Shown here piece by piece: positions 28,348-46,478 of a stretch of DNA of 64,000 bases. Positions within the stretch are counted from its first letter, which is position 1. Each line of letters begins with the position of its first letter. Below the pieces are notes generated by a model. That model was not told where the DNA came from. It was given only the letters and a program-made list of their open reading frames with translations, and searched no databases. The translations under genes were made by a program, and so were the position numbers. Origin of the DNA: Longitalea arenae (GTDB lineage: Bacteria; Bacteroidota; Bacteroidia; Chitinophagales; Chitinophagaceae); assembly GCF_016924755.1 (NCBI RefSeq), contig NZ_JAFFJX010000016.1, positions 62,001 through 126,000 on the forward strand. Reading direction: 5' to 3'.

Positions 28348-29241
28348 ATGAAACAAAAAACGCTCCAACAGCCTTTTGAATTGTACGTGGCAGATATGGA
28401 AGACTGGCAGGCACGCCCGCTCGTTTATCATTTTTTCGAGATCGTACAGATCCTCGATGGGGAAGGTGTACGCCTGGTAAACGATAACCGGTTCCCCTAT
28501 AGCAAAGGCAGTATTTTTCTTTTCACACCACTCGACTGCCGCGGCTTTGAAATGCAAAAACCGACCCGCTTTTGTTCCATCCGTTTTTCTGAAGTGTTCT
28601 TAAGCAAATGCAAATCGGCCCAGGACCGCGAACGGATAACCCAATGGCTTCGTCAACTGGAACATATCTTCTACCATCATAACCGCTTCGAACGGGTACT
28701 CATTAAACAGCCGGCCGACTGCCAGATGATCTCTTCCATCATTGGCAATATGGTGCAGGAGTACGAATCAAAGCAATCCTTTTACCAGGAAAACCTGCAG
28801 CATTTCATTACCCTCGTACTGAATATACTTGCCCGCCACGTAGCGGATGGTATTCCCTCTAAAGCTGCCGAACCGCAGGCGGAACCACTCATCAATCGCA
28901 TGTTGCTCCATGTTCATGAGAACATCAATAAACCGGAAAACTTACGCATCGCCTACCTGGCTAAAGAATTTAATCTCTCGGCTACTTATGTTGGTGAATA
29001 TTTCCGAAAGCTCACTGGCGAAAGCCTGCAACAGTATATCATGCAATACAAAATGCAACTGGTGCAGCACCGGCTGGCTAACAGCGCACTCACGGTAAGC
29101 CAGATCGCCCAGGAACTTGGCTTTAGCGATGAAAGCCATTTGAACCGGCAGTTCAGAAAACATACCGGCGGCGTGGGTCCGCTCGAATACCGGAAGAACG
29201 CTAAACAGACCAAAACTGCCAATGAAATGTTAAGGCCATGA
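28348..29241 (+). CDS. AraC-family transcriptional regulator
   Basis: A 297-residue regulator. The N-terminal cupin-like sensing domain includes FEIVQILDGEGVRLVNDNRFPYSKGSIFLFTP. The C-terminal double helix-turn-helix covers about residues 190-290, with LAKEFNLSATYVGEYFRKLTGESLQQYI and VSQIAQELGFSDESHLNRQFRKHTGVGP-type sequence (it reads KHTGGVGPLEYRK). It ends 90 bp before the Old Yellow Enzyme homologue on the same strand and is the likely regulator of that gene, possibly responding to electrophiles; the inducer is unknown. Confidence 0.9.
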   Translation: MKQKTLQQPFELYVADMEDWQARPLVYHFFEIVQILDGEGVRLVNDNRFPYSKGSIFLFTPLDCRGFEMQKPTRFCSIRFSEVFLSKCKSAQDRERITQWLRQLEHIFYHHNRFERVLIKQPADCQMISSIIGNMVQEYESKQSFYQENLQHFITLVLNILARHVADGIPSKAAEPQAEPLINRMLLHVHENINKPENLRIAYLAKEFNLSATYVGEYFRKLTGESLQQYIMQYKMQLVQHRLANSALTVSQIAQELGFSDESHLNRQFRKHTGGVGPLEYRKNAKQTKTANEMLRP

Positions 29242-30480: not shown

Positions 30481-33429
30481 TTAATTTATTTCTGAATGAA
30501 AATTCAATAAGAAATTAACCAGGTTCACGTCTGGCTGAATGCCTAATTTCTTTCGTAAGCGGTGACGGCCCAGTTCAACACCTTTAATGGTAATATTCAT
30601 GATCTGGGCTATTTCCTTACTGGTAAGGTTGAGGCGTAAATAGGCACATAACTTCAGGTCACTCGCAGTGAGATAAGGATAGGTCTGCTTTAATGATACC
30701 AGGAAATTACTATGCACTTTATCAAAATGCATGGCAAACTGCTCCCAGTTTTTTTTCATTTTATCGTCACCCAGCATACGCAGGATCTTCTTATAATCGT
30801 CGGTATCCTTATCTATTTCACTCGATTTTTTCATGCGTACAAATTCTTCCTTCACTTTCATAAGCATCTCCCCCTTTTGCACCAGATTAAAGGTGGTTGA
30901 AGCCAGCTCGGTATTTTTTACCTGTATTTCAGATTGCAGCTTTTCATTCTGTAAGCGGATGATCTCTTTTTCATTTCTTTCCAGCTCCAGCTGGTGCAGG
31001 TACATCAATTGCTTTTGTTCTTCCTGGTGTTTTTCTATCTCCAGCTGGTGCAGGTAGGCCATGCGTTTCCGCTCTTCATCGTGCTTTTTTTGCTGAACGA
31101 TGAACTTTTTCTTTTGCCATTTATAAATGGCATAGATAAACAGGATTGCCAGGATGCTGTACAGGGCATAAGCCCAGGAGCTACGGTACCAGGGCGCCAG
31201 GATCGTAAACCGGTAAGCGGCCACCGCCGATTCCTGTCCCTCGTGGGTCCTTGCTTTTACGCGAAAAGTGTAAGTGCCGGGCGACAAATACGTATAATCT
31301 TTCTCGTTCTTCTTCGACCAGGCCGACCAGCCATTATCAAAGTCTTCGAGATAATAGGAATATTCAATGCTCGATTGTTTGCCATAGAGCGGCGATGCAT
31401 AATCAAAATGAATGGAGTTCCATGCATATTGGATGTTGGGCACCTCTTCATTCATTAACTGTTGCTCTGATTCTTTATTGAAATAACCACCGAAAATGGT
31501 GCTGTCGCGCTTGTTAACGATCCGCACATCGCTTATTTGTATCGGGATCTCTTCTTTGAATTGTTTGTACCGCTCATAATCGATGAGATAAAAGCCTTCT
31601 TCCGCTGCTATGAAAATATTTCGGCTGTTATAGGGATATATAAATTCCAGTCCGTTGCCGATAATGCGGTTATTAAGCTCCGGAAAATAAATGATCCTCG
31701 CTTGTTTGCCGCTGAGGTCTGAAACGCCCAGATGGCGATCATGCACGAACCAGATATTGCCCTGGCTATCTTCCTTCATATACCGGATAGGCACTTTTGG
31801 TAACAATTGTTGCAGGAAAACCGAAGGTTCAAAATCCCCCGTCTTTGCATTGTATTCGAAGATCCCTTTGTCGTTCGTTAAAACCACCCGGCTTTTCACC
31901 TTGAATATATGGTTGTAATTACCGGAGAGTAGACCTTTGCTGTCTTTATAGGGGGTATAAGCAGGTTTAACCCCGCCATTCAGCGATATTTTATACAAAC
32001 CTTTATAGGGGTGCGCCGCCCAGGCAATATTATTGTCAACCGCAACAAAACGGGCCGACTCAAAATGGGAATGAATTTCAGGATTGATAAAGCGGCCATT
32101 TACATAATTATAAAAATTCAAACCATTATAGGTACCGGCAATCACGACCGGGGATGGCGTTACATTACTGAGGGGCATGAAGGTCCAGAAGCCTGAGCTG
32201 CTGTCGATCATGCGCGAGCTCTTGTTCTCGATCACAAAAAAGCCATCATTATGCCCCATCACCAACTGGCCATTTAACTCCGACAGGTTCCATACCTGCC
32301 CCTTGGGGCCGGGGATCAATTCGAATTTACTTTTGATCAATCCAATATCACTATGATCAGCCAGGGCCGACTGATAAACGCCATTGGAAGTTCCTATATA
32401 TAAATTGTCCTTGAAAACAATGGCCGCCTTACCGGCGCTGTGTTCCTGGTAATCGGGATAAATATGTTTGATGGCATTATTGTAAGCGATGAAATCAATG
32501 CCGTTATCCAGGCCGAGCCAGATATTTTTCTTCCTGTCAACAAAAACGGTGAGAATATTATTGCTTTGAAGTCCCTCCGCTTTCGAAAGCCGTTGGATCA
32601 GTTCCCCTTTACTGTTGATCACGAAACAACCCGCCAGGTTGGTAATGATAGCGATCTGGTTTTGATCGATCACGGCGGCGCTATAAGGGTTCTTTTCATT
32701 GATCAGCCGCATATCTGGCGTATTAAAGGGGGTGATGGTTTCACCGTGTAAGATATAAGAGCCATGATGTTTGGTGAGCAGCAGTGAACTGTCGCCCTGC
32801 AGCGGAACAATGGCGGTGATCTCCGCTTTTTCCGGAAAGAAATCAGGTTTGGAAAAAGGCACCCAGGTGCCGTTTTGAAATTGCAGTAACCCTTTTTGCC
32901 AGGCTTTGCTGATCAGTTTGTGCCGGTGCAGTCCCAGAAAACTCCAGGCCGGATTGCCATAGACCGTGATCTTGTCGTTTTGCAGCTGAAAGATCTTGCG
33001 AAAGGATCTAAAGAAAACTTCATTTCCAACCGGAACAACATCCCAGATATCGGTAAAATCTTTTTCATTGTCGGGGATCAGGTCGCTCAAAGAGTGGTAT
33101 TGCAGCTTTCCGTTCCTGCCCGGTTCAAAATACCCGATCTCCCCTTGGGAACCAATATAGATCCGTCCGTCATTGCCGATGGCCAGCGAACGAACTCCCG
33201 TGCCGGCCGGTAAGGTGTATTTTTTCCAGAAATTTCCGTCGAAACTTAAAAGACCTTCATCATTGGCAGCGTACATAATGCCTTTTTTATCCTGGGCGAT
33301 CTTCCAGTTTTGGGTACCGGCATTATAAACCTGTTTTTGATAATTGATGATCTCAGGCAGGGCAATGGTGTTTTGGGCAAACCCATGTAACAAACCAAGG
33401 CAACTTATGGTAAGCAATAATTTTCTCAT
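30481..33429 (-). CDS. Membrane-spanning propeller/triple-tyrosine one-component regulator with LuxR-type HTH
   Basis: A 982-residue regulator from ATG 33429 (signal peptide MRKLLLTISCLGLLHGFAQ; two upstream codons allow a start at 33438). Order: a periplasmic two-component-regulator-type propeller (about 30-650), a Y_Y_Y domain (SIEYSYYLEDFDNGWSAWS; LSPGTYTFRVKA, 680-740), one membrane helix (WAYALYSILAILFIYAIY), a cytoplasmic coiled coil, and a C-terminal LuxR HTH (NLTSKEIAQIMNITIKGVELGRHRLRKKL). There is no histidine kinase or receiver, so the signal must pass directly to DNA. It faces the GH5-SusC-SusD-GH30 genes across a region carrying a repeated motif and is the natural regulator of that locus. 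Confidence 0.88.
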   Translation of the reverse strand: MRKLLLTISCLGLLHGFAQNTIALPEIINYQKQVYNAGTQNWKIAQDKKGIMYAANDEGLLSFDGNFWKKYTLPAGTGVRSLAIGNDGRIYIGSQGEIGYFEPGRNGKLQYHSLSDLIPDNEKDFTDIWDVVPVGNEVFFRSFRKIFQLQNDKITVYGNPAWSFLGLHRHKLISKAWQKGLLQFQNGTWVPFSKPDFFPEKAEITAIVPLQGDSSLLLTKHHGSYILHGETITPFNTPDMRLINEKNPYSAAVIDQNQIAIITNLAGCFVINSKGELIQRLSKAEGLQSNNILTVFVDRKKNIWLGLDNGIDFIAYNNAIKHIYPDYQEHSAGKAAIVFKDNLYIGTSNGVYQSALADHSDIGLIKSKFELIPGPKGQVWNLSELNGQLVMGHNDGFFVIENKSSRMIDSSSGFWTFMPLSNVTPSPVVIAGTYNGLNFYNYVNGRFINPEIHSHFESARFVAVDNNIAWAAHPYKGLYKISLNGGVKPAYTPYKDSKGLLSGNYNHIFKVKSRVVLTNDKGIFEYNAKTGDFEPSVFLQQLLPKVPIRYMKEDSQGNIWFVHDRHLGVSDLSGKQARIIYFPELNNRIIGNGLEFIYPYNSRNIFIAAEEGFYLIDYERYKQFKEEIPIQISDVRIVNKRDSTIFGGYFNKESEQQLMNEEVPNIQYAWNSIHFDYASPLYGKQSSIEYSYYLEDFDNGWSAWSKKNEKDYTYLSPGTYTFRVKARTHEGQESAVAAYRFTILAPWYRSSWAYALYSILAILFIYAIYKWQKKKFIVQQKKHDEERKRMAYLHQLEIEKHQEEQKQLMYLHQLELERNEKEIIRLQNEKLQSEIQVKNTELASTTFNLVQKGEMLMKVKEEFVRMKKSSEIDKDTDDYKKILRMLGDDKMKKNWEQFAMHFDKVHSNFLVSLKQTYPYLTASDLKLCAYLRLNLTSKEIAQIMNITIKGVELGRHRLRKKLGIQPDVNLVNFLLNFHSEIN

Positions 33430-33494
33430 GAGAGGCAATTGAGGGCGATATGATACTAAGTTAGGTAAATGATTAATATGAAAAAAGGGGGTGG

Positions 33495-33512
33495 ATGGGG
33501 TGTTAATGGGGT
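33495..33512. promoter_or_regulatory. PUL motif copy 1 (ATGGGGT-N4-ATGGGGT)
   Basis: Two ATGGGGT half-sites at 33495-33501 and 33506-33512, separated by gtta, period 11 bp. It lies 66 bp upstream of the regulator start. Direct repeats one helical turn apart present both half-sites on the same DNA face. Confidence 0.6.
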
Positions 33513-33548
33513 AAAGTTGCTGTTTTTTAATAGTTTATGTTCTTTATG

Positions 33549-33566
33549 ATGTGGTATTGATGGGGT
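33549..33566. promoter_or_regulatory. PUL motif copy 2 (ATGTGGT-N4-ATGGGGT)
   Basis: ATGTGGT at 33549-33555, spacer attg, ATGGGGT at 33560-33566, period 11 bp. It is 168 bp upstream of the GH5 ATG in the shared divergent region. Confidence 0.6.
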
Positions 33567-33733
33567 GCCGGATCGTAAATTTTTCTGGTAGAGTTATAAT
33601 TTAGATACCGTCAATGGGATCGCAATTGCAATTGCCCGCGATTACCGGCTGTGCGAAATGGGTAACGGTGCCTGATCCCTCCGGAAACCATGGAACCTGA
33701 AACTTGTAACCTGTAACAACCAAATAATTCTCA

Positions 33734-35479
33734 ATGCTACACCTTAGATCAACGTGCTTGTTATTGTTATCTCTATTACTGCTGGCCCACCCCGATTCCG
33801 ACGCCCAGGGTTTTTTGCGGGTGAACGGAAAGCAGATTGTTAATGAAAAAGGGCAGAACGTACTGCTCCGTGGCGTTGGCCTTGGCGGCTGGATGCTGCA
33901 GGAAGGGTACATGCTGCGGGTAAATGGCGAGGGCATGCAGCACAAGATCAGGTCCCGCATCGTAGAGCTGATCGGCGAAGACAGCACAAAGGCATTCTAT
34001 GATGCCTGGCTGGCCAATCATACGCGCAAAGTTGACATCGACTCCATGAAAGCCTGGGGATTTAATTCCGTTCGCCTGCCCATGCACTATAACCTGTACA
34101 CCCTGTCTGCCGAACAGGAGCCGGAACCGGGGAAACAAACCTGGCTGGAAAAAGGCTTTCAAATGACCGATAAGCTGCTGGCCTGGTGCAAAGCCAATAA
34201 AATATATCTCATTCTCGACCTGCATGCGGCGCCCGGCGGGCAGGGTAACGACCTCAATATTGCCGACCGCGACCCCTCAAAACCATCGCTTTGGGAAAGC
34301 GAGGGGAACCGGCAGAAAACGGTCGCTTTATGGCGAAAATTGGCTGAACGCTATGCCAATGAACCCTGGATCGGCGGTTATGATATTCTGAATGAACCAA
34401 ACTGGGGCTTTGCTGATCTCAAAAATGACAAGAACGGCTTAAAAGAAACCGGTAACCAACCCCTGAAACAATTGATGGTGGATATCACCAAAGCCATTCG
34501 TGAAGTAGATAATAAACACATCATCATCATTGAAGGGAATGGCTGGGGTAATAATTATAATGGTATACTGCCGCCCTGGGATAAGAACATGGTGCTAAGC
34601 TTTCATAAATACTGGAATTTTAATACCCAGGACGCCATTAAACACATTCTGCAAACAAGGGATACCTATAATGTACCGGTTTGGCTCGGCGAAACCGGCG
34701 AAAACTCCAACGTGTGGTTTACTGAAGCGGTGCGGCTGCTTGAAACCAACAATATTGGCTGGGCCTGGTGGCCTTTGAAAAAGCTGGGCAATAACAACCC
34801 GATGCAAATCCCGTCGAATAAGGAATATGATAAGGTGCTCGAATACTGGGCAGGTAAAGGACCCAAACCTACTGCAGTGGAGGCCTGGAAAGGACTGATG
34901 GAATTGGCCGCGGCCACTAAGCTGGAAAACACGGTCATTAAAAGAGACGTGCTGGATGCATTATTCCGGCAACCTTTTTCACGGGCAACCATTCCCTTTA
35001 AAAAGAATGTGGTCAGGAACGAAGCTATCGTAAAAGCGGTGGACTACGACCTGGGCAGTAATGGGGCCGCTTATTTTGATACCGATACCGCCGATTACCA
35101 CATTTCAAACGGCAGCCGTGGTGGCAACCGGGGCCGGGTGTATCGCAATGATGGGGTGGATATCGCGGCAGACCCTGCCAATGATAGTTATTATGTAACG
35201 AATAGCGAAGCGGGTGAATGGCTGCAATACACGATCGATGTGGTCAAGGCCGGCAATTATCATCTTAAACTGAACTGTAACCCTGCTAAAGAAATAGCAA
35301 AACTAAGTGTACAGGTAAATGGTAACGGTACCAAACAACTACCGGTTGCCAGCACAACAGGTTGGCAATCCCTTGAAGTAAAAGATATCACCTTGAAGAA
35401 AGGATCCAATAGCCTGCGTATATACATTGATGAAGGAGAAATGAGCATCCGCGACATACAGTTTACAGCAGTTGAGTAA
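33734..35479 (+). CDS. Secreted GH5-family glucanase with C-terminal CBM6-like domain
   Basis: Endo- or exo-glucanase of 581 residues with a signal peptide (LLLLSLLLLAHPDSDA). The GH5 TIM barrel has the acid/base Glu221 in YDILNEPNWGF and the nucleophile Glu320 in PVWLGETGENSN. The opening LLRGVGLGGWMLQEGYM is typical of GH5 members related to exo-beta-1,3-glucanases. Residues 440-580 form a CBM6-like beta-sandwich (VDYDLGSNGAAYFDTD, SEAGEWLQYTIDV, GSNSLRIYIDEGEMSI). It is the first PUL gene and ends in a strong terminator before SusC. The glucan linkage is inferred, not shown. Confidence 0.88.
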   Translation: MLHLRSTCLLLLSLLLLAHPDSDAQGFLRVNGKQIVNEKGQNVLLRGVGLGGWMLQEGYMLRVNGEGMQHKIRSRIVELIGEDSTKAFYDAWLANHTRKVDIDSMKAWGFNSVRLPMHYNLYTLSAEQEPEPGKQTWLEKGFQMTDKLLAWCKANKIYLILDLHAAPGGQGNDLNIADRDPSKPSLWESEGNRQKTVALWRKLAERYANEPWIGGYDILNEPNWGFADLKNDKNGLKETGNQPLKQLMVDITKAIREVDNKHIIIIEGNGWGNNYNGILPPWDKNMVLSFHKYWNFNTQDAIKHILQTRDTYNVPVWLGETGENSNVWFTEAVRLLETNNIGWAWWPLKKLGNNNPMQIPSNKEYDKVLEYWAGKGPKPTAVEAWKGLMELAAATKLENTVIKRDVLDALFRQPFSRATIPFKKNVVRNEAIVKAVDYDLGSNGAAYFDTDTADYHISNGSRGGNRGRVYRNDGVDIAADPANDSYYVTNSEAGEWLQYTIDVVKAGNYHLKLNCNPAKEIAKLSVQVNGNGTKQLPVASTTGWQSLEVKDITLKKGSNSLRIYIDEGEMSIRDIQFTAVE

Positions 35480-35497
35480 TACAATCGGTTATGCAGC

Positions 35498-35526
35498 AGC
35501 CCCGGCAATTTTGCCGGGGCTTTTTA
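35498..35526 (+). terminator. Rho-independent terminator of the GH5 gene
   Basis: Arms AGCCCCGGCAA and TTGCCGGGGCT with a 2-nt loop, followed by TTTTTATTTT, 18 bp after the stop. Confidence 0.9.
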
Positions 35527-35577
35527 TTTTATCCTTAAGCGTAAGACGAAGAATATCCGAAACATATAGCCGCCATG

Positions 35578-35595
35578 ATGTGGTAAAGAGGGGGT
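35578..35595. promoter_or_regulatory. PUL motif copy 3 (ATGTGGT-N4-AGGGGGT)
   Basis: ATGTGGT at 35578-35584, spacer aaag, AGGGGGT at 35589-35595, period 11 bp. It lies 134 bp upstream of the SusC ATG; the second half-site has one mismatch. Confidence 0.55.
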
Positions 35596-35631
35596 GAAAA
35601 CAGCGTCTAACCTGCCTGTATGGCTGGCTTG

Positions 35632-35649
35632 ATGGGGTATTGATGGGGC
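35632..35649. promoter_or_regulatory. PUL motif copy 4 (ATGGGGT-N4-ATGGGGC)
   Basis: ATGGGGT at 35632-35638, spacer attg, ATGGGGC at 35643-35649, period 11 bp. It ends 79 bp before the SusC ATG, just upstream of where the promoter should lie, as expected for an activator site. A near-match TACTTTAG to the -7 element follows around 35680. Confidence 0.6.
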
Positions 35650-35728
35650 CCCTTTTTAGGCCAGGGCCTATCAAGGGACTACTTTAGATTTTGATTTGTT
35701 TCATTATTAACTAACAACTGACTTGCGT

Positions 35729-38700
35729 ATGAAAATTCTGCGAATTGTCCTCGTAGTGCTGGTCTTTCAGGCCCTCTTCTTACCTGTACTGGCACAGGAT
35801 CTTGTAGTAAACGGTAAGGTAAATGCCAGATCCGGCGAGCCCCTGACGGGGGCAACGGTAGCAATAAAAGGAACCAGTGTTGCTACTACAACCGATGCCA
35901 GCGGCAATTTTTCCATCAATGTTCCTAACCGTAAAGTTCGCTTGGTGGTGTCCTATGTTGGAATGAACAGCCAGGAGCTATCCATTCCCGAAAGCGGCCC
36001 CCTGCTGGTACAAATGGAAGATGTAGCCAGCTTAGGCCTCGATGAGGTAGTGGTGATCGGGTACGGAACCCAGAGTAAAAAAGTAGTTACAGGCGCTATT
36101 TCAAGCGTAAAAGCAAGAGACCTGGAAAATGTACCCAGTAACAGGATCGAGCAGGCGCTGCAAGGGCGCGTTTCCGGTGTAACCATCGCCCAGAATAATG
36201 GTCAGCCCGGGTCTGCCTCTACCATCAGGGTACGCGGTGTTACCACATTCAGCGCCGGCGCCGGTAACGACGGCGGAAATAATCCGCTGTGGGTAGTTGA
36301 TGGAGTGGTCGTTGACCAGGGCGGTATCGGCTACCTGAACCAAAGCGATATTGAGTCCATTGAAGTATTGAAGGATGCGGCTTCTGCAGCTATTTATGGA
36401 ACCCGCGCAGCAACTGGTGTGATCCTCGTGACTACCAAAAAAGGCAAAAGTGGCAAGCTAACGGTGAATTACAACGGTTTTTACGGTGTGTCGAAAGCCA
36501 ATAAAAAGCTCGACCTGCTGAATGCCACCGAATATGCTACGATCATCAATGAAAGATCGGTGAACGGCGGCGGCGCCAAAATTTTCAATGATCCTGCTGC
36601 ACTGGGTAGTGGAACCGACTGGCAGGATGCGATCTTTAATGATAATGCTGCCCGTTTTTCACATGAAGTAAGCATGAGCGGCGGTAATGAACGGTCAACC
36701 TTTTATTTATCGTTCGGGTACCAGGACCAGGAAGGCATCATTGCCGGCCCGATCTCGAACTATACGCGGAAGAACGTACGGCTCAATTCAACGCATAAGA
36801 TCAGCAAGATCTTCACATTCGGCGAGAACCTGGCGTATTCACGGCAGAAATCAGTTGGCATTGGCAATACCAATAATGAATTTGGTGGCCCATTGGCTTC
36901 CGCCATCAACCTGGATCCGGTAACGCCATTGGTAATTACCGACCCGGCGATTGCGAACGCCAATCCCTACAGCAATAACCCGGTGATCAAAGATGCAAAT
37001 GGAAATCCCTATGCGATCTCCTCATATGTGGGTCAGGAAATTACCAATCCTGCCGCTTATATTCAAACCCGGCTGGGCCAATTCAACTGGTCTGATGATT
37101 TTGTAGGTAATGTTTATTTGGAAGCAGCGCTTGGTAAACATATAAAAGTAAGATCAACGCTGGGTGGTAAACTGGCTTATTGGGGCAATCAGGGTTTCAC
37201 CCCTTTCTACTACCTGAGCGCGAATGTGAAAACTTCACAGAACAACCTCAGAAAAGAAAATAACAACAGTTTTAACTGGAATATTGAGAACACAGTAACG
37301 TATACCAATAGTTTCGATAAACACAATGTAACCGTTTTATTGGGTCAGGGTGCTTATGTAGAGAATATTGGCGGCGCCTCCAGCGTCACCCTGTTCGGTT
37401 TGCCCATCAGCAGTTATAAAGATGCTTCTTTTAATTTCGACATTCCCCAGGCAAACAGGAACTCAACTTCTTCTGACCTTACTGAACATATATTGTCATC
37501 CCTGTTCACGCGCGTGAACTATAATTATAATGAAAAATACCTGTTCACCGGTATCCTCAGAAGAGATGGTTCGTCCAGGTTCTCTATGAAGAATAAATAT
37601 GGAATCTTCCCTTCTTTCTCTGTAGGTTGGAATGTTTCCAATGAAGCATTCTGGCCGGTGAACAATGTGTTTGACCGGTTAAAGATCAGGGGTGGTTATG
37701 GTGTGGTTGGTAACGATGCCATCAGGAACTTCGGTTACCTGGCGGTCATAAACGGCGGCTTTAATTATACCATCGGAACATCGGATAATATCACCACCGG
37801 TTATGCACCGCAGTCGCTCGACAATCCCGACCTGCGTTGGGAAGAAACCTCCCAAACCAATATTGGCTTTGAAGCCCAATTGCTGAAATCGCTCACCCTT
37901 AATGTTGACTATTTCATCAAGAAGACCACCGGTATCTTACGCCCTGTTACGATCCCTGGTTATGTAGGCGTATCTACTGCGCCTGTAGCCAATGTGGCAG
38001 ATATGGAAAACAGCGGGTTAGATCTTGAAGTAGGCTACCGCACCAATTTCGGCGAAGTGAACTTTGGCGCCAATGCCAACTTCTCATACCTGAAAAACAA
38101 AGTGACTTATGTAGCTGCTGATGCCGACTTTATTCCCGGTGAGGCCAGCTTTCAAACCATGGGTACCGTAACCCGTATTCAGAAAGGCCAGTCTTATAAC
38201 ACCTTCTTCGGTTTTCAAACGGATGGTATTTTCCAGAATCAGGCCGAGATCGATGCCTACAGAAACAAGAACGGTGAGTTAATTCAGCCCAATGCGAAAC
38301 CGGGCGATTTCAGATGGGTAGATGTAAATGGTGATGGCAAGTTCACCGGTGATGACCTCGATAAGACCTTCCTCGGCAGCAGCATTCCCAAATATACATT
38401 CGGCTTAACACTCAACGCCGGCTACAAGAACTTCGACATTATGGTGTTTATGCAGGGTGCTGCAGGCAGCAAAATATTCCAGGGGCTTCGCCGGCTCGAT
38501 ATCGGCAATGCCAATTATCAATCGAAAGTATTGGGCCGCTGGACAGGCGAAGGCACTTCCAATGAGTTTCCCAGGTTATCGAGCAATGATCCCAATGGTA
38601 ACTTTTCAAGAATGTCTGATTTCTATCTTGAAAAAGGCGATTATGCGCGCTTTAAACTGGTGCAGCTGGGCTATACCTTACCACAAACATTGCTGAGCAA

Positions 38701-38866
38701 AATAAAGATCAGCAGGCTGCGGGTATATGTAACCGCTGAGAACCTGTTCACCATAACAGGCTACACGGGTTATGATCCTGAAATTGGCGGCGTCGTTTTT
38801 GGCGTTGACAAAGGAGTTTACCCACAGGCCCGTTCCGTTATTGGCGGTGTTCAATTGACATTCTAA
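35729..38866 (+). CDS. SusC-like TonB-dependent glycan importer
   Basis: Outer-membrane TonB-linked transporter of 1045 residues from ATG 35729 (a TTG at 35723 is also in frame). It has a signal peptide (LVVLVFQALFLPVLAQ), an N-terminal carboxypeptidase-regulatory-like domain (ARSGEPLTGATVAIKGTSVAT), the TonB box/SusC signature DEVVVIGYGTQSKK, the plug (ALQGRVSGVTIAQNNGQPGS; IESIEVLKDAASAAIYGTRA) and the 22-strand barrel ending in PQARSVIGGVQLTF. It works with the SusD partner 24 bp downstream to capture and import oligosaccharides. Two copies of the 11-bp-period motif lie in its upstream region. Confidence 0.96.
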   Translation: MKILRIVLVVLVFQALFLPVLAQDLVVNGKVNARSGEPLTGATVAIKGTSVATTTDASGNFSINVPNRKVRLVVSYVGMNSQELSIPESGPLLVQMEDVASLGLDEVVVIGYGTQSKKVVTGAISSVKARDLENVPSNRIEQALQGRVSGVTIAQNNGQPGSASTIRVRGVTTFSAGAGNDGGNNPLWVVDGVVVDQGGIGYLNQSDIESIEVLKDAASAAIYGTRAATGVILVTTKKGKSGKLTVNYNGFYGVSKANKKLDLLNATEYATIINERSVNGGGAKIFNDPAALGSGTDWQDAIFNDNAARFSHEVSMSGGNERSTFYLSFGYQDQEGIIAGPISNYTRKNVRLNSTHKISKIFTFGENLAYSRQKSVGIGNTNNEFGGPLASAINLDPVTPLVITDPAIANANPYSNNPVIKDANGNPYAISSYVGQEITNPAAYIQTRLGQFNWSDDFVGNVYLEAALGKHIKVRSTLGGKLAYWGNQGFTPFYYLSANVKTSQNNLRKENNNSFNWNIENTVTYTNSFDKHNVTVLLGQGAYVENIGGASSVTLFGLPISSYKDASFNFDIPQANRNSTSSDLTEHILSSLFTRVNYNYNEKYLFTGILRRDGSSRFSMKNKYGIFPSFSVGWNVSNEAFWPVNNVFDRLKIRGGYGVVGNDAIRNFGYLAVINGGFNYTIGTSDNITTGYAPQSLDNPDLRWEETSQTNIGFEAQLLKSLTLNVDYFIKKTTGILRPVTIPGYVGVSTAPVANVADMENSGLDLEVGYRTNFGEVNFGANANFSYLKNKVTYVAADADFIPGEASFQTMGTVTRIQKGQSYNTFFGFQTDGIFQNQAEIDAYRNKNGELIQPNAKPGDFRWVDVNGDGKFTGDDLDKTFLGSSIPKYTFGLTLNAGYKNFDIMVFMQGAAGSKIFQGLRRLDIGNANYQSKVLGRWTGEGTSNEFPRLSSNDPNGNFSRMSDFYLEKGDYARFKLVQLGYTLPQTLLSKIKISRLRVYVTAENLFTITGYTGYDPEIGGVVFGVDKGVYPQARSVIGGVQLTF

Positions 38867-38890: not shown

Positions 38891-40402
38891 ATGCGACTCA
38901 TAAAAATAAAATACTTACTGCTGGCAGTAATTGCTCTTAACACCCTGGCAGCTTGTAAAAAAAGCTTTGTTGATGTAACGCCGCAGGGACAATTCCTCTC
39001 AGATTTTTATTATAAAGACCAGGACCAGGCTTACTGGGCCCTGGTGGCTGTGTATGATGTATTGAGAAAAAATTCCGGTGGCTTCGACAATATGCTTGCC
39101 CTGATGAACTCAGGTTCCGATGATCACGTGGCCGGTGGCGGCGGCGCCACCGATGGCACGCAGTTACAGGCTTTCACCAATTATACAATGACCTCGAACC
39201 TGATGGCTGCCAGCTTCTGGAACGATCCTTACCAGGGAATCTTAAGAGCGAATACCCTCTTATTGAAATTGCCGAATGTACCCATGGATGATAAAGTGCG
39301 TGCACGATTTGCGGCAGAAGCAAAAGCATTACGCGCTTATTATTACTTTAATCTGTTGCGCATGTTCCGAAATATTCCGCTGATCCTGGAACCGGTAAGT
39401 ATTAACAACCTGTACGAGCCTTCACAGGCAAAACCCGAAGACGTATATGCGCAGATAGAAAAAGACCTTACCGAAGCCATTGCCGATCTGCCTGCTACGA
39501 TTACCGCCTCTACTGAAGCCGGCCGTTTTACCAAAGGGGCTGCAAAGGCGCTATTGGGAAAAGTATACCTGTATGAGAAAAAGAATGCGCTGGCTGCCCA
39601 GCAACTGGCTGAAGTGAATGGTACACCTGGCGCTGTGAGCCCATTCGGTTATAAATTGCTCGATAAATTCAGTGACCTGTGGAAGCCTTCGAACAAGTTT
39701 AACTCAGAATCAATATTAGAAGAAACGCACAGTGCCGGTGGCAACTCTGTCTGGGATTTTTGGGGCAGCGGCCGTGATGAAGGCAATACCGTGAATGTTC
39801 AGGTAGGTCCCAGAAGTTATGAAAGAAAAGATACATCAGCACCCGATCTGCCATCTGGCTGGAGCTTCCTGGTGTTTACCCAGAACTTTTATGATTTCAT
39901 AAAAGATGACCCGCGCAAGGAAGCTACTTTATTAGACCTGAACCCACTGCAGGCCGCTAACAAAGTAAAATACATTGCCGGTTATATGAATACCGGTTAT
40001 TTCCTGAACAAGTTCCTGCCCCGTAAAGAAGATGTATCCAAAGGCGGTGGCAATGCCGAATTGAATTACCGTCAGAATACCTACCTCATACGCCTGGCCG
40101 ATACCTATTTAATGGAAGCAGAAGCATTGAATGCTACCGGCCCCCGGGCGCAGGCCTTGCTCGATGCGGTTAGAGCCCGGGTTGGCTTGACTCCTGTGCC
40201 TGTTTCTATGGACGCCATTAAAAAAGAACGCCGGGCTGAACTCGCCGGCGAAGGCCATCGCTGGTTCGACCTGGTAAGATGGGGTGATGCACCGGCAGTA
40301 TTGGGAAGCAGGGGTTTTAAAGCCGGCACCCATGAAATATTTCCCATTCCTTTCCGGGAAACACAGGGCACGAAGATCAAACAGAACCCGAATTATAATT
40401 AG
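38891..40402 (+). CDS. SusD/RagB-like surface glycan-binding lipoprotein
   Basis: Lid protein of the SusC importer, 503 residues. The lipoprotein signal ends LNTLAAC (Cys22) followed by KKSFVDVTPQGQF, the usual SusD N-terminus. TPR-type helices (FAAEAKALRAYYYFNLLRMFRNIPLI; TKGAAKALLGKVYLYEKK) and the C-terminal RagB motif (RRAELAGEGHRWFDLVRWGDA; HEIFPIPFRETQG) are present. It is co-transcribed with SusC. The glycan cannot be inferred from this protein alone; the neighbouring GH5 and GH30 enzymes are the best guide. Confidence 0.95.
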   Translation: MRLIKIKYLLLAVIALNTLAACKKSFVDVTPQGQFLSDFYYKDQDQAYWALVAVYDVLRKNSGGFDNMLALMNSGSDDHVAGGGGATDGTQLQAFTNYTMTSNLMAASFWNDPYQGILRANTLLLKLPNVPMDDKVRARFAAEAKALRAYYYFNLLRMFRNIPLILEPVSINNLYEPSQAKPEDVYAQIEKDLTEAIADLPATITASTEAGRFTKGAAKALLGKVYLYEKKNALAAQQLAEVNGTPGAVSPFGYKLLDKFSDLWKPSNKFNSESILEETHSAGGNSVWDFWGSGRDEGNTVNVQVGPRSYERKDTSAPDLPSGWSFLVFTQNFYDFIKDDPRKEATLLDLNPLQAANKVKYIAGYMNTGYFLNKFLPRKEDVSKGGGNAELNYRQNTYLIRLADTYLMEAEALNATGPRAQALLDAVRARVGLTPVPVSMDAIKKERRAELAGEGHRWFDLVRWGDAPAVLGSRGFKAGTHEIFPIPFRETQGTKIKQNPNYN

Positions 40403-40571: not shown

Positions 40572-42032
40572 ATGAGATCATTAAAAGAACCACCATATTT
40601 TATGTTCAATTCTCTTGGCTTATTGTTGATCTGGATGATGTTGAACGGCAGCTGCACGAGAAATGAGGTAACCGAAAATCCGCCGCCTGCGCCGGAACCG
40701 CCTGCTTCTACCGATGTGCATTTTTATTTAACCCAGGGCGATCGCAACATTCTCTTCAATAAACAGAACATAAGCCTGTTATTTTCCAGTACGGGAACTG
40801 CAAGTAACACTATTGAGGTAGATACCGCGCAAACATTTCAAACGATTGACGGCTTTGGGTATACATTAACCGGCGGAAGCGCTTCCCTCTTGAATGCGCT
40901 GCCGGCGGCCACACTCGACGCTTTATTGAAAGAGCTTTTTCTGTGGGATAGTACGCATATCGGGGTAAGTTATTTACGCATCAGTATTGGCGCCTCCGAT
41001 CTAAGCGCTACTACCTTTACCTATGATGATATGCCGGCCGGTGAAACCGATCCGGCCCTCACCCACTTCAGCATAGAGAAAGAAAGGCCGGACCTGATAC
41101 CTGTATTGAAAAAGATCATTGCATTAAATCCCGCTATCAAAATATTAGGCTCGCCCTGGTCGGCGCCCGTATGGATGAAGACCAATGGCAGCTTTAAAGG
41201 CGGCAGCCTGAAGCCTGAGTACTACAGCGTCTATGCCAATTACTTTGTAAAATACATCCAGGCTATGAAAGCCGAGGGCATTACCATCGATGCCATTACA
41301 CCGCAGAACGAACCACTGCACGGCGGTAATAATCCCAGCATGGTCATGCAGGCTGCTGAGCAGGCAGCATTCATCAAGGACCATTTGGGGCCCGCATTCG
41401 CACAGGCAGGGGTCACTACCAAAATCATATTGTACGACCACAATGCCGACCGGCCCGATTATCCGCTGGCCATATTAAATGATGCCGAGGCTAAACCTTT
41501 TGTTGATGGATCGGCATTTCACCTGTACGGGGGCAATATTTCAGCGCTTACCGAAGTGCACAATGCACATCCTGATAAACACGTGTATTTTACGGAACAA
41601 TGGGTAGGAGGTCCGGGCAATTTTCCGGTGGATCTGCAGTGGCATGTTGAAAACCTGATCATTGGCGCTACCCGTAACTGGAGCCGCAATGTACTGGAGT
41701 GGAACCTGGCTGCCGATCCTGGCTATAAACCGCATACCCCAGGTGGTTGTACCAGCTGTTTGGGCGCGCTTACCATTGGTGCAACCATAACGAGAAATGT
41801 ATCCTACTATGTTATTGCGCATGCTTCCAAATTCGTTCGGCCTGGTTCGGTACGTATTGCCTCTAACCATGCCGGTGATATACTTACGGTAGCATTTAAA
41901 AATCCCGCAGGTAAAAAGGTATTGATCGCATTGAATAAAGGAACGGCTGCAAGCGCTTTTAATATAAAATTCAATGGAAAAATGGTAAGCACCAGCCTGA
42001 ATGCCGGGGCTGTTGGCACTTATGTATGGTAA
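40572..42032 (+). CDS. GH30 glycoside hydrolase lipoprotein (beta-1,6-glucanase / glucosylceramidase-like), first copy
   Basis: A 486-residue GH30 enzyme with a lipoprotein signal ending MMLNGSC (Cys28); a start at ATG 40602 is also possible. The TIM barrel carries the acid/base Glu247 in AITPQNEPLHGG and the nucleophile Glu342 in HVYFTEQWVG. The preceding QTIDGFGYTLTGGSASLLNAL and GSPWSAPVWMKTNGSFKGG are GH30 signatures, and a C-terminal beta-sandwich ends the protein. GH30 subfamily 3 contains beta-1,6-glucanases; subfamily placement here is inferred. It lies 169 bp after susD, separated by a repeat element, and 19 bp before the second GH30. Confidence 0.9.
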   Translation: MRSLKEPPYFMFNSLGLLLIWMMLNGSCTRNEVTENPPPAPEPPASTDVHFYLTQGDRNILFNKQNISLLFSSTGTASNTIEVDTAQTFQTIDGFGYTLTGGSASLLNALPAATLDALLKELFLWDSTHIGVSYLRISIGASDLSATTFTYDDMPAGETDPALTHFSIEKERPDLIPVLKKIIALNPAIKILGSPWSAPVWMKTNGSFKGGSLKPEYYSVYANYFVKYIQAMKAEGITIDAITPQNEPLHGGNNPSMVMQAAEQAAFIKDHLGPAFAQAGVTTKIILYDHNADRPDYPLAILNDAEAKPFVDGSAFHLYGGNISALTEVHNAHPDKHVYFTEQWVGGPGNFPVDLQWHVENLIIGATRNWSRNVLEWNLAADPGYKPHTPGGCTSCLGALTIGATITRNVSYYVIAHASKFVRPGSVRIASNHAGDILTVAFKNPAGKKVLIALNKGTAASAFNIKFNGKMVSTSLNAGAVGTYVW

Positions 42033-42051
42033 TTTGTAAAATGATATAAAG

Positions 42052-43506
42052 ATGAAATTTCCTGTCCCGTTTTTAATTTTCCTTACCCAGCTTGTTCAGG
42101 CGCAAAATGTGCAAAAGCCCAGGGCGGTAAATCCAATACAAACCTATAGAACAATTACCGTGTATACCACGGCGGAAAAAACGGATTACCGCTTGTCAAA
42201 GACCCAGACCCAGACCCTTTCTCCCTTTGGCCAGCCCCTCGAAACACAGCCCTGTGTGTTTATTGATGTCGCCAGAACATTTCAAACCATAACCGGCATA
42301 GGCGGCGCCATCACAGATGCCAGTGCAGAAACCTTTGCCAAATTACCTGCGGCCAGCCAGGAGGAGCTGATAAACGCCTATTATAGTGCAGAAAAAGGCA
42401 TCGGCTATTCCCTGATCCGCACGAATATGAATAGTTGTGATTTCTCCAGCGGCAGCTATACCTATGTTGATGAAAATGATACAGCCCTCAGAACATTCAA
42501 CATAGCGCATGATGAAAAATACCGCATCCCCATGATCAAAAGGGCACTCGCCACGGCGGGTAAACTCCCTTTATATATCAGTCCATGGAGCCCGCCGGCC
42601 TGGATGAAAGACAACAACAACATGCTGCAGGGCGGTAAGCTGAAAGAAGAATACAGGCAAAGCTGGGCGAATTATTTTGTGAAGTATATCAAGACCTATG
42701 AAAGCAAAGGCATACCGGTGTGGGGACTTACCGTGCAGAACGAACCCATGGCAAAACAGCGCTGGGAATCCTGCATTTTCACCGCGGAGGAAGAAAGGGA
42801 TTTTATAAAGAAATATTTAGGGCCCACCCTGCATAAAGAAGGCCTGGGCAATAAAAAGCTGATTGCCTGGGACCATAACCGCGACCTCTTATATCAACGC
42901 GCTACTACGATCTTGAATGATCCGCAAGCCGCTAAATATGTGTGGGGCATCGGTTATCATTGGTATGAGACCTGGACCGGCAGCGCCATGCAATTCGAGA
43001 ACCTGAAAAGGGTACACGAGACTTTCCCTGACAGAAATTTGATCTTTACGGAAGGCTGCGTTGAGAAGTTCGATATGAACCGCATCCATGATTGGGCTAT
43101 TGGCGAGCGGTACGGTTTCTCGATGGTAAATGATTTTAATAGTGGTACCGTGGCATGGACCGACTGGAATATTTTGCTGGATGAAAACGGCGGACCGAAC
43201 CACGTTGGTAACTTTTGTTTTGCCCCCGTGCATGCAGACACTAAAACCGGTAAACTGATCTATACCAATGCCTATTATTACCTGGGGCATTTCTCAAAAT
43301 TTGTAAAAGCAGGCGCCCGGCGGGTAGGTACTGCCAGCAGCCGCGATAAGCTGGCAAGCACCGCATTCATCAATCCCGATGGCAAAGTGGTAGTGATTGT
43401 TTTGAACACGTCGAACGACCAGTTGGCGTACAGGGTATGGCTGCAGGGCAATGCAGCAGAGATCACCAGTTTGCCGCATTCCATGGCTACATTGGTGTTA
43501 GAGTAA
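42052..43506 (+). CDS. GH30 glycoside hydrolase, second copy
   Basis: A 484-residue GH30 enzyme with a Sec signal (MKFPVPFLIFLTQLVQAQ), so probably periplasmic whereas the first copy is lipidated. Catalytic residues are Glu231 in GLTVQNEPMAKQRWES and Glu334 in LIFTEGCVEKF. Other signatures are FQTITGIGGAITDASAETF and YISPWSPPAWMKDNNNM. It differs enough from the first copy to have another specificity or cleavage mode, for example trimming imported oligosaccharides. It follows the first GH30 by 19 bp and is followed by a terminator. Confidence 0.92.
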   Translation: MKFPVPFLIFLTQLVQAQNVQKPRAVNPIQTYRTITVYTTAEKTDYRLSKTQTQTLSPFGQPLETQPCVFIDVARTFQTITGIGGAITDASAETFAKLPAASQEELINAYYSAEKGIGYSLIRTNMNSCDFSSGSYTYVDENDTALRTFNIAHDEKYRIPMIKRALATAGKLPLYISPWSPPAWMKDNNNMLQGGKLKEEYRQSWANYFVKYIKTYESKGIPVWGLTVQNEPMAKQRWESCIFTAEEERDFIKKYLGPTLHKEGLGNKKLIAWDHNRDLLYQRATTILNDPQAAKYVWGIGYHWYETWTGSAMQFENLKRVHETFPDRNLIFTEGCVEKFDMNRIHDWAIGERYGFSMVNDFNSGTVAWTDWNILLDENGGPNHVGNFCFAPVHADTKTGKLIYTNAYYYLGHFSKFVKAGARRVGTASSRDKLASTAFINPDGKVVVIVLNTSNDQLAYRVWLQGNAAEITSLPHSMATLVLE

Positions 43507-43532
43507 TCGGCAATATCATTGAGGCTAAAACA

Positions 43533-43570
43533 AGAGGTCGCCTGAGTAGGGCGGCCTCTGTTGTTTTGGA
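43533..43570 (+). terminator. Terminator after the second GH30 gene
   Basis: Arms AGAGGTCGCC and GGCGGCCTCT (one G-T wobble) with a 7-nt loop, followed by GTTGTTTTGG. It probably marks the end of the SusCD-GH30 transcript, leaving the GH78 gene as a separate unit after about 190 bp. Confidence 0.65.
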
Positions 43571-43757
43571 TGGGATCAACCGGGACACCGCAGGACAGTG
43601 AACCGTAGAAGCTTTGTATCTTGTTTTGCCCCCCTACGAAACATGACTCAAAAAAGAAATTCGCAATACCTTCACAGGATATAGTGGTCCCTGGCATGTA
43701 AGCCGTTTTAGAAGGATTGTACGTAAGGACGTTTTTAGAACACTAACGAAAGCACAT

Positions 43758-46478
43758 ATGAAAAAGGTCTTTTTATTGTTTCTTGCCTTATCAACAGGCA
43801 TTTCCGCAGCACTCGCACAAGTACAGGTACAGCACCTGGTCATTGAGAACCTCAGCAACCCCATTGGGCTTGATGTAACCAACCCCCGTTTTAGCTGGCA
43901 ACTCAGTTCTCCGAAGCGGAATGTACTTCAAACAGCATATGAAATAAGAGTAGCAAACGATATAAAGACAATTTCAAAAGGTGATGTTTGGAACTCAGGA
44001 AAGATCATATCAGACCAGTCGGTGCTGGTGCCCTATAATGGCGCTGCACTTGGTTCAGGCAAAAAATATTACTGGCAGGTACGCGTTTGGGATAATACGG
44101 GCAAGGCTTCTGCCTGGAGTGCGCCCGCTTACTGGCAAATGGGGCTGTTGAAACCGGCAGACTGGAAAGCCAGCTGGATCGTACCGGGTTTTGAAGAAGA
44201 CAGCCTGCGCGCCTCACCGTTATTCAGAAAAGAATTCAGCAATAATAAGAAAATAAGATCGGCAGTTGCTTATATCACCGCACATGGATTGTATGAAGCA
44301 CAGATCAACGGCAAAAGAGTAGGCGATGCCTACCTCACTCCGGGGTGGACGAGCTACAACAAGCGCCTGCAATACCAGGCCTATGATGTAACTGATCAGC
44401 TGAAAGCGGGCAATAATGCCATAGGCGTAACCCTGGGCAATGGCTGGTACCGCAGTGATCTCGCCTGGGGAAAAGAGAAAAATAATAGATATGGAAAAGA
44501 TATCGCATTATTGTTTCAGTTAGATATAACATTTACAGATGGCACTACACAAAGCATCGTATCGGATGAAAGCTGGAAATCGGCCACAGGTGCTATCCGG
44601 TATTCAGAGGTATATCACGGGGAAACGATAGATGCCCGCCAGGAAAAAAAGGGTTGGGCCATGGCTGGTTACGATGATGCGGCCTGGAGCCCTGCAAAAC
44701 GCGCCGAATTTTCAAAAGACGTTTTACTGGCTACCTACAATGAACCGGTTAAAAAACATGAAACTTTTAAGCCGGTACGAATCTTTAAAACACCAGCGGG
44801 TGAGCAGGTGATCGACTTCGGGCAAAACCTCGTTGGCTGGGTAGTGCTGAAAGCAAAAGGAAAAGAAGGCGACAGGATCACTGTATCGCATGCGGAAGTG
44901 TTGGATAAAGCCGGAAATTTTTACACCGAGAACCTTCGTGTGGCAAAAGCACAGGACATATATATATTAAAAGGGAATGAAGAAGAAACTTTTGAACCGC
45001 ATTTCACCTGGCATGGTTTCCGCTTTATAAAAGTAGAAGGTTATCCCGGCGAATTAATACCCGAAAATTTCACGGCAGTGGCCCTGTATTCTGATATGAG
45101 ACCAGCCGGCAGCTTCACTTCTTCTAACAATTTAATAAACCAGTTGCAGCGAAATATAGAATGGGGACTGAAAGGCAATTTCCTGGATGTGCCCACCGAT
45201 TGCCCGCAACGTGATGAGCGCCTGGGTTGGACCGGCGATGCACAGGTATTCTTTCGCACAGCTACTTTTTTACAGGATTGCAATAATTTTTTTAACAAGT
45301 GGCTGAAGGATCTGTCGGCCGACCAATTCGCCAGTGGCAGCATTCCGCATGTTATTCCCAACGTGATGGGCAATGGTGGTGGCAGCGCCGGCTGGGGCGA
45401 TGTGGCAACGATCATTCCCTGGAGCATGTATATAACCTATGGCGACAAAAGAGTACTGGAAGAACAATTCAGCAGTATGAAGGCCTGGGTTGATTATATG
45501 ACCAGCCAAAGCACCAACGACCTTTGGAATAAAGGCAATCATTATGGCGACTGGCTCTTTTACAGCGTGAACAATGACCGTGACGGAAGATCGGCTATCA
45601 CCGACAAGTACTTTATAGCGCAATGTTTTTATGCGCACTCTACCCAGCTGCTGATAAACGCGGCCAGAATTCTTGGTAAAACCGAGGAAGCCACCAAATA
45701 CACGGCCTTGCTCAACAGAATAAAAGATGCTTTTTTAAAAGAATACACCACCTTGAACGGCGCTACCACCAGCAATACGCAAACCTCCTATGTGCTGGCC
45801 CTGCACTTTGATATGCTGCCGGAATCAATGCGGCAGCAGGCGGCAGACCGGCTGGTGAAAAACATCAAGCAATATAATAATCATCTTAGCACCGGCTTTT
45901 TGGGCACGCCCTATCTCTGCCATGTGCTTAGTCGTTTCGGTTATACCGATGTGGCATATACCCTGTTACTGCAGGAAAGCTATCCTTCCTGGTTATACCC
46001 GGTGAAAATGGGCGCCACTACCATTTGGGAACGTTGGGATGGCATCCGGCCTGATAGCACTTTTCAAACCGCCACCATGAACTCTTTCAATCACTATGCA
46101 TACGGCGCCATTGGCGACTGGATGTATCGCGTAATGGCCGGACTGGATACCGATGAAGAAGCAGTCGGTTATAAAAAGATCAGGGTACAACCGAAGATCG
46201 GCGGCGGCTTTACCCAGGCAGCAGCCACTTACACCACGCGCTATGGAAAATTGTCTTCCGCCTGGAAAATAGAAAATGAAAGGTTATTGTTCGATGTAAC
46301 CATACCTGCCAATACCACCGCTACTATCTATATTCCACTGAAGGGATCAGATGAAGTATTGGAGAACGGCAATCCATTAAGCGCAGCCAAAGAGATAGAG
46401 GTGGTTGGAAAGGAAAAAGAATATTACGTGGTAAAGGTTGGTTCGGGAGTGTACAGATTTAGCGCAAATTGGAAGTAA
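43758..46478 (+). CDS. Alpha-L-rhamnosidase, GH78
   Basis: A 906-residue secreted rhamnosidase with signal peptide MKKVFLLFLALSTGISAALA. The N-terminal fibronectin-like and beta-sandwich domains (LSNPIGLDVTNPRFSWQLSS; VAYITAHGLYEAQINGKRVGD; YQAYDVTDQLKAGNN) precede the (alpha/alpha)6 barrel. The barrel carries the catalytic-acid region DCPQRDERLGWTGDAQVF and the later GATTIWERWDGIRPD. A C-terminal Ig-like domain closes the protein. It removes terminal alpha-L-rhamnose from glycans or glycosides. It lies after a terminator and a 251-bp gap, so its membership in the glucan locus is uncertain. Confidence 0.93.
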   Translation: MKKVFLLFLALSTGISAALAQVQVQHLVIENLSNPIGLDVTNPRFSWQLSSPKRNVLQTAYEIRVANDIKTISKGDVWNSGKIISDQSVLVPYNGAALGSGKKYYWQVRVWDNTGKASAWSAPAYWQMGLLKPADWKASWIVPGFEEDSLRASPLFRKEFSNNKKIRSAVAYITAHGLYEAQINGKRVGDAYLTPGWTSYNKRLQYQAYDVTDQLKAGNNAIGVTLGNGWYRSDLAWGKEKNNRYGKDIALLFQLDITFTDGTTQSIVSDESWKSATGAIRYSEVYHGETIDARQEKKGWAMAGYDDAAWSPAKRAEFSKDVLLATYNEPVKKHETFKPVRIFKTPAGEQVIDFGQNLVGWVVLKAKGKEGDRITVSHAEVLDKAGNFYTENLRVAKAQDIYILKGNEEETFEPHFTWHGFRFIKVEGYPGELIPENFTAVALYSDMRPAGSFTSSNNLINQLQRNIEWGLKGNFLDVPTDCPQRDERLGWTGDAQVFFRTATFLQDCNNFFNKWLKDLSADQFASGSIPHVIPNVMGNGGGSAGWGDVATIIPWSMYITYGDKRVLEEQFSSMKAWVDYMTSQSTNDLWNKGNHYGDWLFYSVNNDRDGRSAITDKYFIAQCFYAHSTQLLINAARILGKTEEATKYTALLNRIKDAFLKEYTTLNGATTSNTQTSYVLALHFDMLPESMRQQAADRLVKNIKQYNNHLSTGFLGTPYLCHVLSRFGYTDVAYTLLLQESYPSWLYPVKMGATTIWERWDGIRPDSTFQTATMNSFNHYAYGAIGDWMYRVMAGLDTDEEAVGYKKIRVQPKIGGGFTQAAATYTTRYGKLSSAWKIENERLLFDVTIPANTTATIYIPLKGSDEVLENGNPLSAAKEIEVVGKEKEYYVVKVGSGVYRFSANWK

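Follow-up and report, generated by a model that had tools for sequence, protein, structure and literature searches.

A doubled 11-bp tandem array as the probable operator of the one-component sensor P0001 at two promoters of a Longitalea arenae polysaccharide utilization locus

SusR-like regulators of Bacteroides are membrane-anchored regulators of polysaccharide utilization loci (PULs). In the accessible parts of Ravcheev et al. 2013 (PMC3878776) their predicted motifs are direct repeats with centres 67 or 77 bp apart, a very long spacing that is explained there by large proteins bound on one DNA face, and three of the five SusR-like regulators of B. thetaiotaomicron adjoin susC/susD-like genes; long-spaced direct repeats for membrane-bound PUL regulators are thus already known. 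The motifs of hybrid two-component systems (HTCS) are given in the same parts as direct repeats with an average of 21 bp between sites. The mechanism of SusR is called undefined in the accessible part of PMC6874557, and for HTCS the accessible part of PMC11253607 contains binding shifts only. Here we describe a double array of direct repeats in a 64,000-nucleotide stretch of Longitalea arenae (contig NZ_JAFFJX010000016.1, positions 62,001 to 126,000; hereafter the window), which, as judged by sequence comparison, is very probably the operator through which the adjacent one-component sensor P0001 activates a GH5 gene and a SusC gene. The three genes are:

30481..33429, minus strand: regulator P0001, 982 amino acids, with a signal peptide and one membrane helix (both assigned by eye), Reg_prop, Y_Y_Y, a long predicted helix and a NarL/LuxR-type helix-turn-helix (HTH)
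33734..35479, plus strand: GH5 with a C-terminal CBM35/CBM6-like module (Pfam scan), putative target 1
35729..38866, plus strand: SusC-like TonB-dependent receptor, putative target 2 and first gene of SusC-SusD-GH30-GH30-GH78

With the SusR-like systems, as far as the source describes them, the P0001 system shares a membrane-anchored PUL regulator and a long-spaced direct-repeat operator. It differs in that two sites are described there, whereas here two 11-bp tandems, i.e. four half-sites, lie about 54 bp apart, and in its fixed 30-bp register to a -7 box, its Reg_prop/Y_Y_Y sensor and an HTH that is detectably NarL/LuxR-like. The SusR spacing was not observed, the distance being 54 bp in the window and none of 67 family arrays lying at 67 or 77 bp when it was left free between 25 and 90 bp, and none of 20 shorter relatives found with the HTH profile (open reading frames of 354-656 amino acids in 19, one without match to the query peptide) was identifiable as SusR. 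The P0001 system thus appears to work like SusR-like systems, with a spacing of its own and without established membership in the SusR family. HTCS of Bacteroides resemble it in their periplasmic propeller/Y_Y_Y sensor, direct-repeat motif and control of SusCD, but have a kinase, a receiver and AraC-type HTHs, none of which a Pfam scan (E <= 0.001) detected in P0001. NarL/FixJ/LuxR-type regulators such as EsrB, DosR and RcsB share the HTH fold and sequence profile, but no receiver was found in P0001, and its presumed half-sites follow one another in the same orientation every 11 bp, where inverted pairs are more usual. Head-to-tail direct repeats with an 11-bp period upstream of the promoter, as seen here, occur likewise in OmpR/PhoB-type operators; PhoB-type proteins, however, use a winged helix and not a NarL-type HTH. 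In the open-licence literature, with subscription papers mostly outside the scope, we found no published motif for the propeller/Y_Y_Y/LuxR class and no description of the doubled tandem, the 30-bp register or the helix covariation. XylRA and CgrA were considered as prior art and rejected, their DNA-binding parts being AraC-type according to the accessible parts of PMC12125979 and PMC5698469.

The original prediction had listed four copies of a paired 7-bp direct repeat, and re-reading the sequence located all of them on the plus strand:

33495-33512, plus strand: site 1, ATGGGGTGTTAATGGGGT
33549-33566, plus strand: site 2, ATGTGGTATTGATGGGGT
35578-35595, plus strand: site 3, ATGTGGTAAAGAGGGGGT
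35632-35649, plus strand: site 4, ATGGGGTATTGATGGGGC

As claimed, the spacer measures 4 bp at all four sites, reads ATTG twice, and the sites come in pairs 54 bp apart at both the GH5 and the SusC promoter. The strict form ATGKGGT-N4-ATGGGGT is exact for two sites; each of the remaining two departs from it at a single position and matches the looser AKGGGGY form that the original prediction proposed for its check. Likewise, the 11-bp period holds, but the 4-bp "spacer" belongs to the repeat, so that the unit is not 7 bp long but an 11-bp head-to-tail tandem, TTGATGKGGTA followed by TTGATGGGGT. Each promoter carries two such tandems:

33493..33512, plus strand: distal tandem of the GH5 promoter array (half-sites 1 and 2), GGATGGGGT-GT-TAATGGGGT, 54 bp upstream of the proximal tandem and aligned in orthologues
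33547..33566, plus strand: proximal tandem of the GH5 promoter array (half-sites 3 and 4), TGATGTGGT-AT-TGATGGGGT, an exact match to the tandem pattern
35576..35595, plus strand: distal tandem of the SusC promoter array, TGATGTGGT-AA-AGAGGGGGT
35630..35649, plus strand: proximal tandem of the SusC promoter array, TGATGGGGT-AT-TGATGGGGC

Frequent occurrence at unrelated sites, which would speak against an operator, was not seen: the relaxed pattern ATGKGGTNNNNAKGGGGY has four exact matches in the 7,284,291-bp genome, all at this locus, and its reversed control has none. Once mismatches are allowed the sites are lost in the background, with 80 genomic matches against 87 for the control at up to two mismatches and a non-significant 15 in the window against 10.7 expected at up to three. 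The extended unit TGATGKRGT-N2-TGATGKRGT, also with up to three mismatches, gave six matches in the window where 0.29 were expected: the four sites and two others, at 36043 inside the coding sequence of SusC and at 58911.

We then asked how far this architecture extends among 195 genomes of the family, 79 of which encode P0001 homologues (E <= 1e-60). After two of 108 regions had been dropped for having less than 250 bp upstream, 106 upstream regions were analyzed by a motif-free scan for repeat lags of 9-25 and 30-90 bp, 86 of them distant (regulators 30-55% identical to P0001) and 20 close; several of the 106 near-duplicate the orthologous loci described below. The distant regions peaked at a lag of 11 bp combined with 53, 55 or 54 bp (z 6.2, 5.9 and 5.9) and the close ones at 11/54 (z 10), while the peaks of five shuffled sets reached z 2.7-3.2 and lay at other lags. 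Tested locus by locus against 60 mononucleotide shuffles each, again without a motif, 51 of the 86 distant regions contain an 11/52-56 array (p <= 0.02). Across the family the half-site reads TGATGTAGT, of which the window has the GG form (TGATGKGGT). A consensus score of at least 28 of 36 was obtained for 40 of the 48 distant loci with a divergent SusC gene within 500 bp and for 10 of the 38 without one, compared with none of 1,720 shuffles. When the tandem-to-tandem distance was allowed to vary from 25 to 90 bp, 67 arrays reached this score, and 62 of them fall at 52-56 bp (26 at 54, 15 at 53, 12 at 55, five at 52 and four at 56 bp; the others at 43 (three), 33 and 57 bp (one each)). The proposal that the array is bound on one DNA face stands in so far as 11 bp and about 54 bp, five helical turns, fit it; the family range of 52-56 bp makes the phasing approximate.

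The array also keeps a fixed distance to a promoter-like element:

33597..33604, plus strand: -7-like box of the GH5 promoter, TAATTTAG, 30 bases from the proximal tandem
35680..35687, plus strand: -7-like box of the SusC promoter, TACTTTAG, 30 bases from the proximal tandem

Both boxes differ from TAnnTTTG by one or two letters, at the box end. According to the accessible part of PMC9723704 this box occupies -12 to -5 in a flavobacterium, which would place the two tandems at about -62 to -43 (proximal) and about -116 to -97 (distal). For the register in the family we used the 74 of 106 regions that score at least 26, reduced to 69 by removal of identical downstream sequences, with tandem spacings of 51-57 bp and again with 25-90 bp. 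TAnnTTT begins at offset 30 in 30 of the 69 arrays, at 29 in two and at 31 in three, the background being about 0.5% per position; T occupies offset 30 in 55 of the arrays and A occupies offset 31 in 59. Where the -33 TTTG is expected there is only a weak T-rich stretch, suggesting activator dependence. A scan for sigma-70 (-35/-10) promoters gave three promoter-like sites, none on the plus strand, against 3.4 in shuffles. Consensus scans further detected one feature between the two targets:

35498..35521, plus strand: intrinsic-terminator-like hairpin and T run after GH5

SusC therefore plausibly needs its own promoter, which would make GH5 and SusC two separate transcription units. Near -33, in the interval that separates the SusC array from its -7 box, we also noted a near-palindrome GCCTT(T/A)TTAGGC (CCCTTTTTAGGCC in the window, 35650-35662), which is kept in L038, L040, L042, L043, L047, L048 and L050, occurs in L039 before GH30 and is missing from the GH5 promoter.

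The link between array and regulator was examined via their neighbourhood and their covariation. The tandem TGATGNNGTNNTGATGNNGT has 49 exact matches in the 195 genomes. The TGATGT[AG]GT type accounts for 34 of these matches, and 28 of the 34 stand 42-122 bp upstream of a homologue of P0001, on the strand opposite to it and reading away from the regulator. No listed P0001 homologue stands alongside the 15 matches of other types. Since TGATGTAGT reads the same backwards, a reversed-pattern control is not independent for the tandem, and position relative to the regulators was used instead. At position 7 of the half-site, loci whose regulator has a K recognition helix (NITIKGVELGRHR type) show 53 G versus 2 A and those with an R helix 23 G versus 111 A (55 non-redundant loci scoring at least 30, half-sites with recognisable core only). 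In a tree built from the sensor only (same score limit, 12 close relatives dropped, 49 rows) 10 rows have K/L and mostly G and 39 are not K/L and have mostly A, so that helix and base agree in all 49. Each of the two traits changes twice on this tree and the changes coincide, one pair falling in the window's clade and the other in L137; the five rows closest to L137 by path have the other type.

Conservation in related loci was assessed in 17 orthologous loci, which were defined by the presence of the regulator and include Longitalea luteola, Niastella species and several metagenome bins. In 13 of them (L038-L050) the expected gap contains one or more sites with no more than two mismatches, so that the array is kept among orthologues as well as family-wide. 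L051 has only about 22 bp of upstream sequence, L052 and L054 (regulators 47% and 43% identical) keep the architecture with diverged letters, e.g. GATGTAGTATTGATGTAG, and L053 (42%) has a weak array with a score of 26 of 36. Among the orthologues the spacing is retained while the flanks diverge. A second array is found in the GH5/SusC gap of 10 of the 11 loci that have both genes, the window included, and all 10 show a TA(C/T)TTTAG or TACTTTTA box at offset 30. The loci without an intervening GH5 (L045, L052, L053, L054) have their array between regulator and SusC. L039, in which GH5 is followed by GH30 and no SusC was found, has a single tandem, TGATGTGGTAATGTAGTGGT, left before GH30, and TATTTTTAG begins 30 bases after it; apparently the second array lost all but its promoter-proximal half while the downstream gene changed.

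The regulator itself adjoins SusC/SusD and is, by its sensor, the single membrane helix identified by eye and the HTH, a one-component membrane regulator. The Pfam scan reported Reg_prop and Y_Y_Y, with GerE below threshold (19.3 bits, cut-off 23.5). In the predicted structure a helix of about 80 residues is followed by a compact HTH (mean predicted local distance difference test score 80). The HTH matches EsrB by profile (E 5.3e-5), and its top Foldseek matches are StyR, DosR and RcsB, none of which reaches E <= 0.001; profile and predicted fold together point to the NarL/LuxR class. Sensor relatives in the PDB (3v9f, 3va6, 3ott, 4a2l) are annotated as two-component sensor kinases. P0001 is divergent from GH5, which is followed by SusC, SusD, two GH30 and GH78, the remaining genes being:

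38891..40402, plus strand: SusD-like lipoprotein
40572..46478, plus strand: GH30, GH30 and GH78 (alpha-L-rhamnosidase), probably the rest of the SusC unit

Placement of the last three genes in the same operon as SusC is based on gene order.

From the computed positions, conservation, architecture, promoter register and covariation we infer binding, its stoichiometry, a ligand and activation rather than repression. Each half-site would be bound by one NarL/LuxR-type HTH, so that each 11-bp tandem carries two HTHs in head-to-tail order, and the second tandem, about five helical turns upstream, would hold a second HTH pair. The proximal dimer would adjoin RNA polymerase and could recruit it to promoters whose -33 region is weak. 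Upon binding of an oligosaccharide by the periplasmic propeller the coiled coil would relay the change, and the GH5 gene and the SusC unit would be switched on together. The idea that the repeats are an operator array of the adjacent LuxR-type regulator thus draws support from comparative evidence, i.e. the tandems beside homologues, the covariation and the loci defined by the regulator.

Several observations weigh against this reading. The repeats bound by NarL/LuxR-type HTHs are more often inverted than head to tail. Six of the 34 TGATGT[AG]GT tandems have no listed P0001 homologue alongside, and the single-site pattern is at background in the 195 genomes (42 matches versus about 40 for the control by hand count, 11 of the 42 adjoining a P0001 homologue by hand check), so that single sites mean little without context. 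Scores below 28 were obtained for eight of the 48 distant loci with divergent SusC and for 28 of the 38 others, and the scoring consensus was derived from the very loci scored. Among the low-scoring loci is the genome's own paralogue L076 (46-47% identical to P0001), which lacks an upstream array. In L049 the 140-bp GH5/SusC gap contains no second array; as the first array is intact, this suggests a single transcription unit for GH5 and SusC in that locus. The covariation rests on two independent changes, too few to reach significance (sign test p 0.5), and the helix residues were chosen after the alignment had been seen, making it support and not proof. Finally, 62 loci outside the family do not show the 11/54 architecture, their best lag pair being 11/33 (z 4.6).

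The array might instead be bound by another regulator, either the AraC-type protein encoded at 28348-29241, 4.2 kb from the P0001 start, or a global factor, and only travel with the PUL. AraC proteins often bind direct repeats, and an AraC relative is present in three of the 17 orthologous loci (L038, L039, L043) and OYE in four, several loci being short. AraC was not found, however, in the available stretches of the other 14, some of them short, whereas the array is present in most, and both the adjacency of 28 of the 34 tandems to P0001 homologues and the tracking of the half-site base with the P0001 recognition helix make this explanation very improbable. Very improbable, too, is that P0001 binds but represses without ligand, or that the distal tandem is a separate site for repression or looping. 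A fixed distance to the -7 box suits either sign, and looping or silencing could be the role of a site some 54 bp upstream, but the core promoter does not include the proximal tandem, which ends near -43, the weak T-rich stretch in the -33 region suggests activator dependence, and SusR is described as an activator in the accessible parts of PMC3878776. We see next to no chance that the repeats act in RNA, by leader attenuation or antitermination, or represent a mobile or simple repeat. Proteins can bind RNA at short G-rich repeats, but these occur at a constant distance upstream of the -7 box and so would not be transcribed from these promoters; the genome has no further exact copies, and the spacing is kept while flanks diverge.

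With activation by P0001 from the doubled tandem as the preferred reading, the loci outside the family delimit its geometry. The absence of 11/54 from the 62 outside loci makes the 54-bp form a rule for the family, Chitinophagaceae by its named relatives, and not for the phylum. The 16 outside loci with divergent SusC show 11/33 at z 6.3, mainly due to a flavobacterial branch, and the 23 co-directional ones gave no clear signal (best 16/47, z 3.9). As a tentative generalization, for which the odds are rather against us, the propeller/Y_Y_Y/LuxR one-component sensors of Bacteroidota might share a common grammar of head-to-tail 11-bp tandems set apart by a branch-specific number of turns (about five here, three in the flavobacterial branch), with 30 bp to the -7 box in this family; the spacing would be a ruler set by two large sensor dimers packing side by side in the inner membrane, and the promoter would be read only upon formation of a four-HTH receptor assembly. 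For a class of PUL regulators that is large but little studied, the arrays offer a testable operator code, in which half-site, spacing, register and candidate specificity residues may make the target promoters of many such regulators predictable from sequence. They also make testable how membrane-embedded transcription factors, as dimers or tetramers of fixed geometry, reach DNA and polymerase.

Related repeats were noted beyond the doubled tandem. In one genome three of five matches to the window's pattern (G171:C32:35235-35594, L024) are spaced 170 and 172 bp, unlike an operator, and are possibly a repeat element. A sister clade with the recognition helix RGVET (L076 at G000:C11:554000-573000, L098, L109, L111, L112, L118) has a single asymmetric 11-bp pair, approximately TGTAGNGGTTT followed by TGACGTA, downstream of the regulator and before the next gene; the pair occurs in variants, with L109 differing most, and L140 and L141 retain only its second half. 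In the flavobacterial branch (L211, L213, L218, L227) tandems of TGATGTGTTTT followed by TGTAATGA, or close variants, are found upstream of the regulator and before SusC, with a repeat distance of 33 bp (three turns); about 100 bp upstream there is one more (A)ATGTAGTG-like copy, which reads TTGTAGTG in L211. The flavobacterial co-directional loci L239, L240, L241 and L244 carry TGTATGTTTTTTGTTGAGGTT or TGTATATTTTTTGTTGAGGTT between regulator and SusC, and an inverted relative, ACATTACCACAACA, soon after the regulator stop (a one-base variant in L241 and L244), which in L239 lies about 130 bp upstream.

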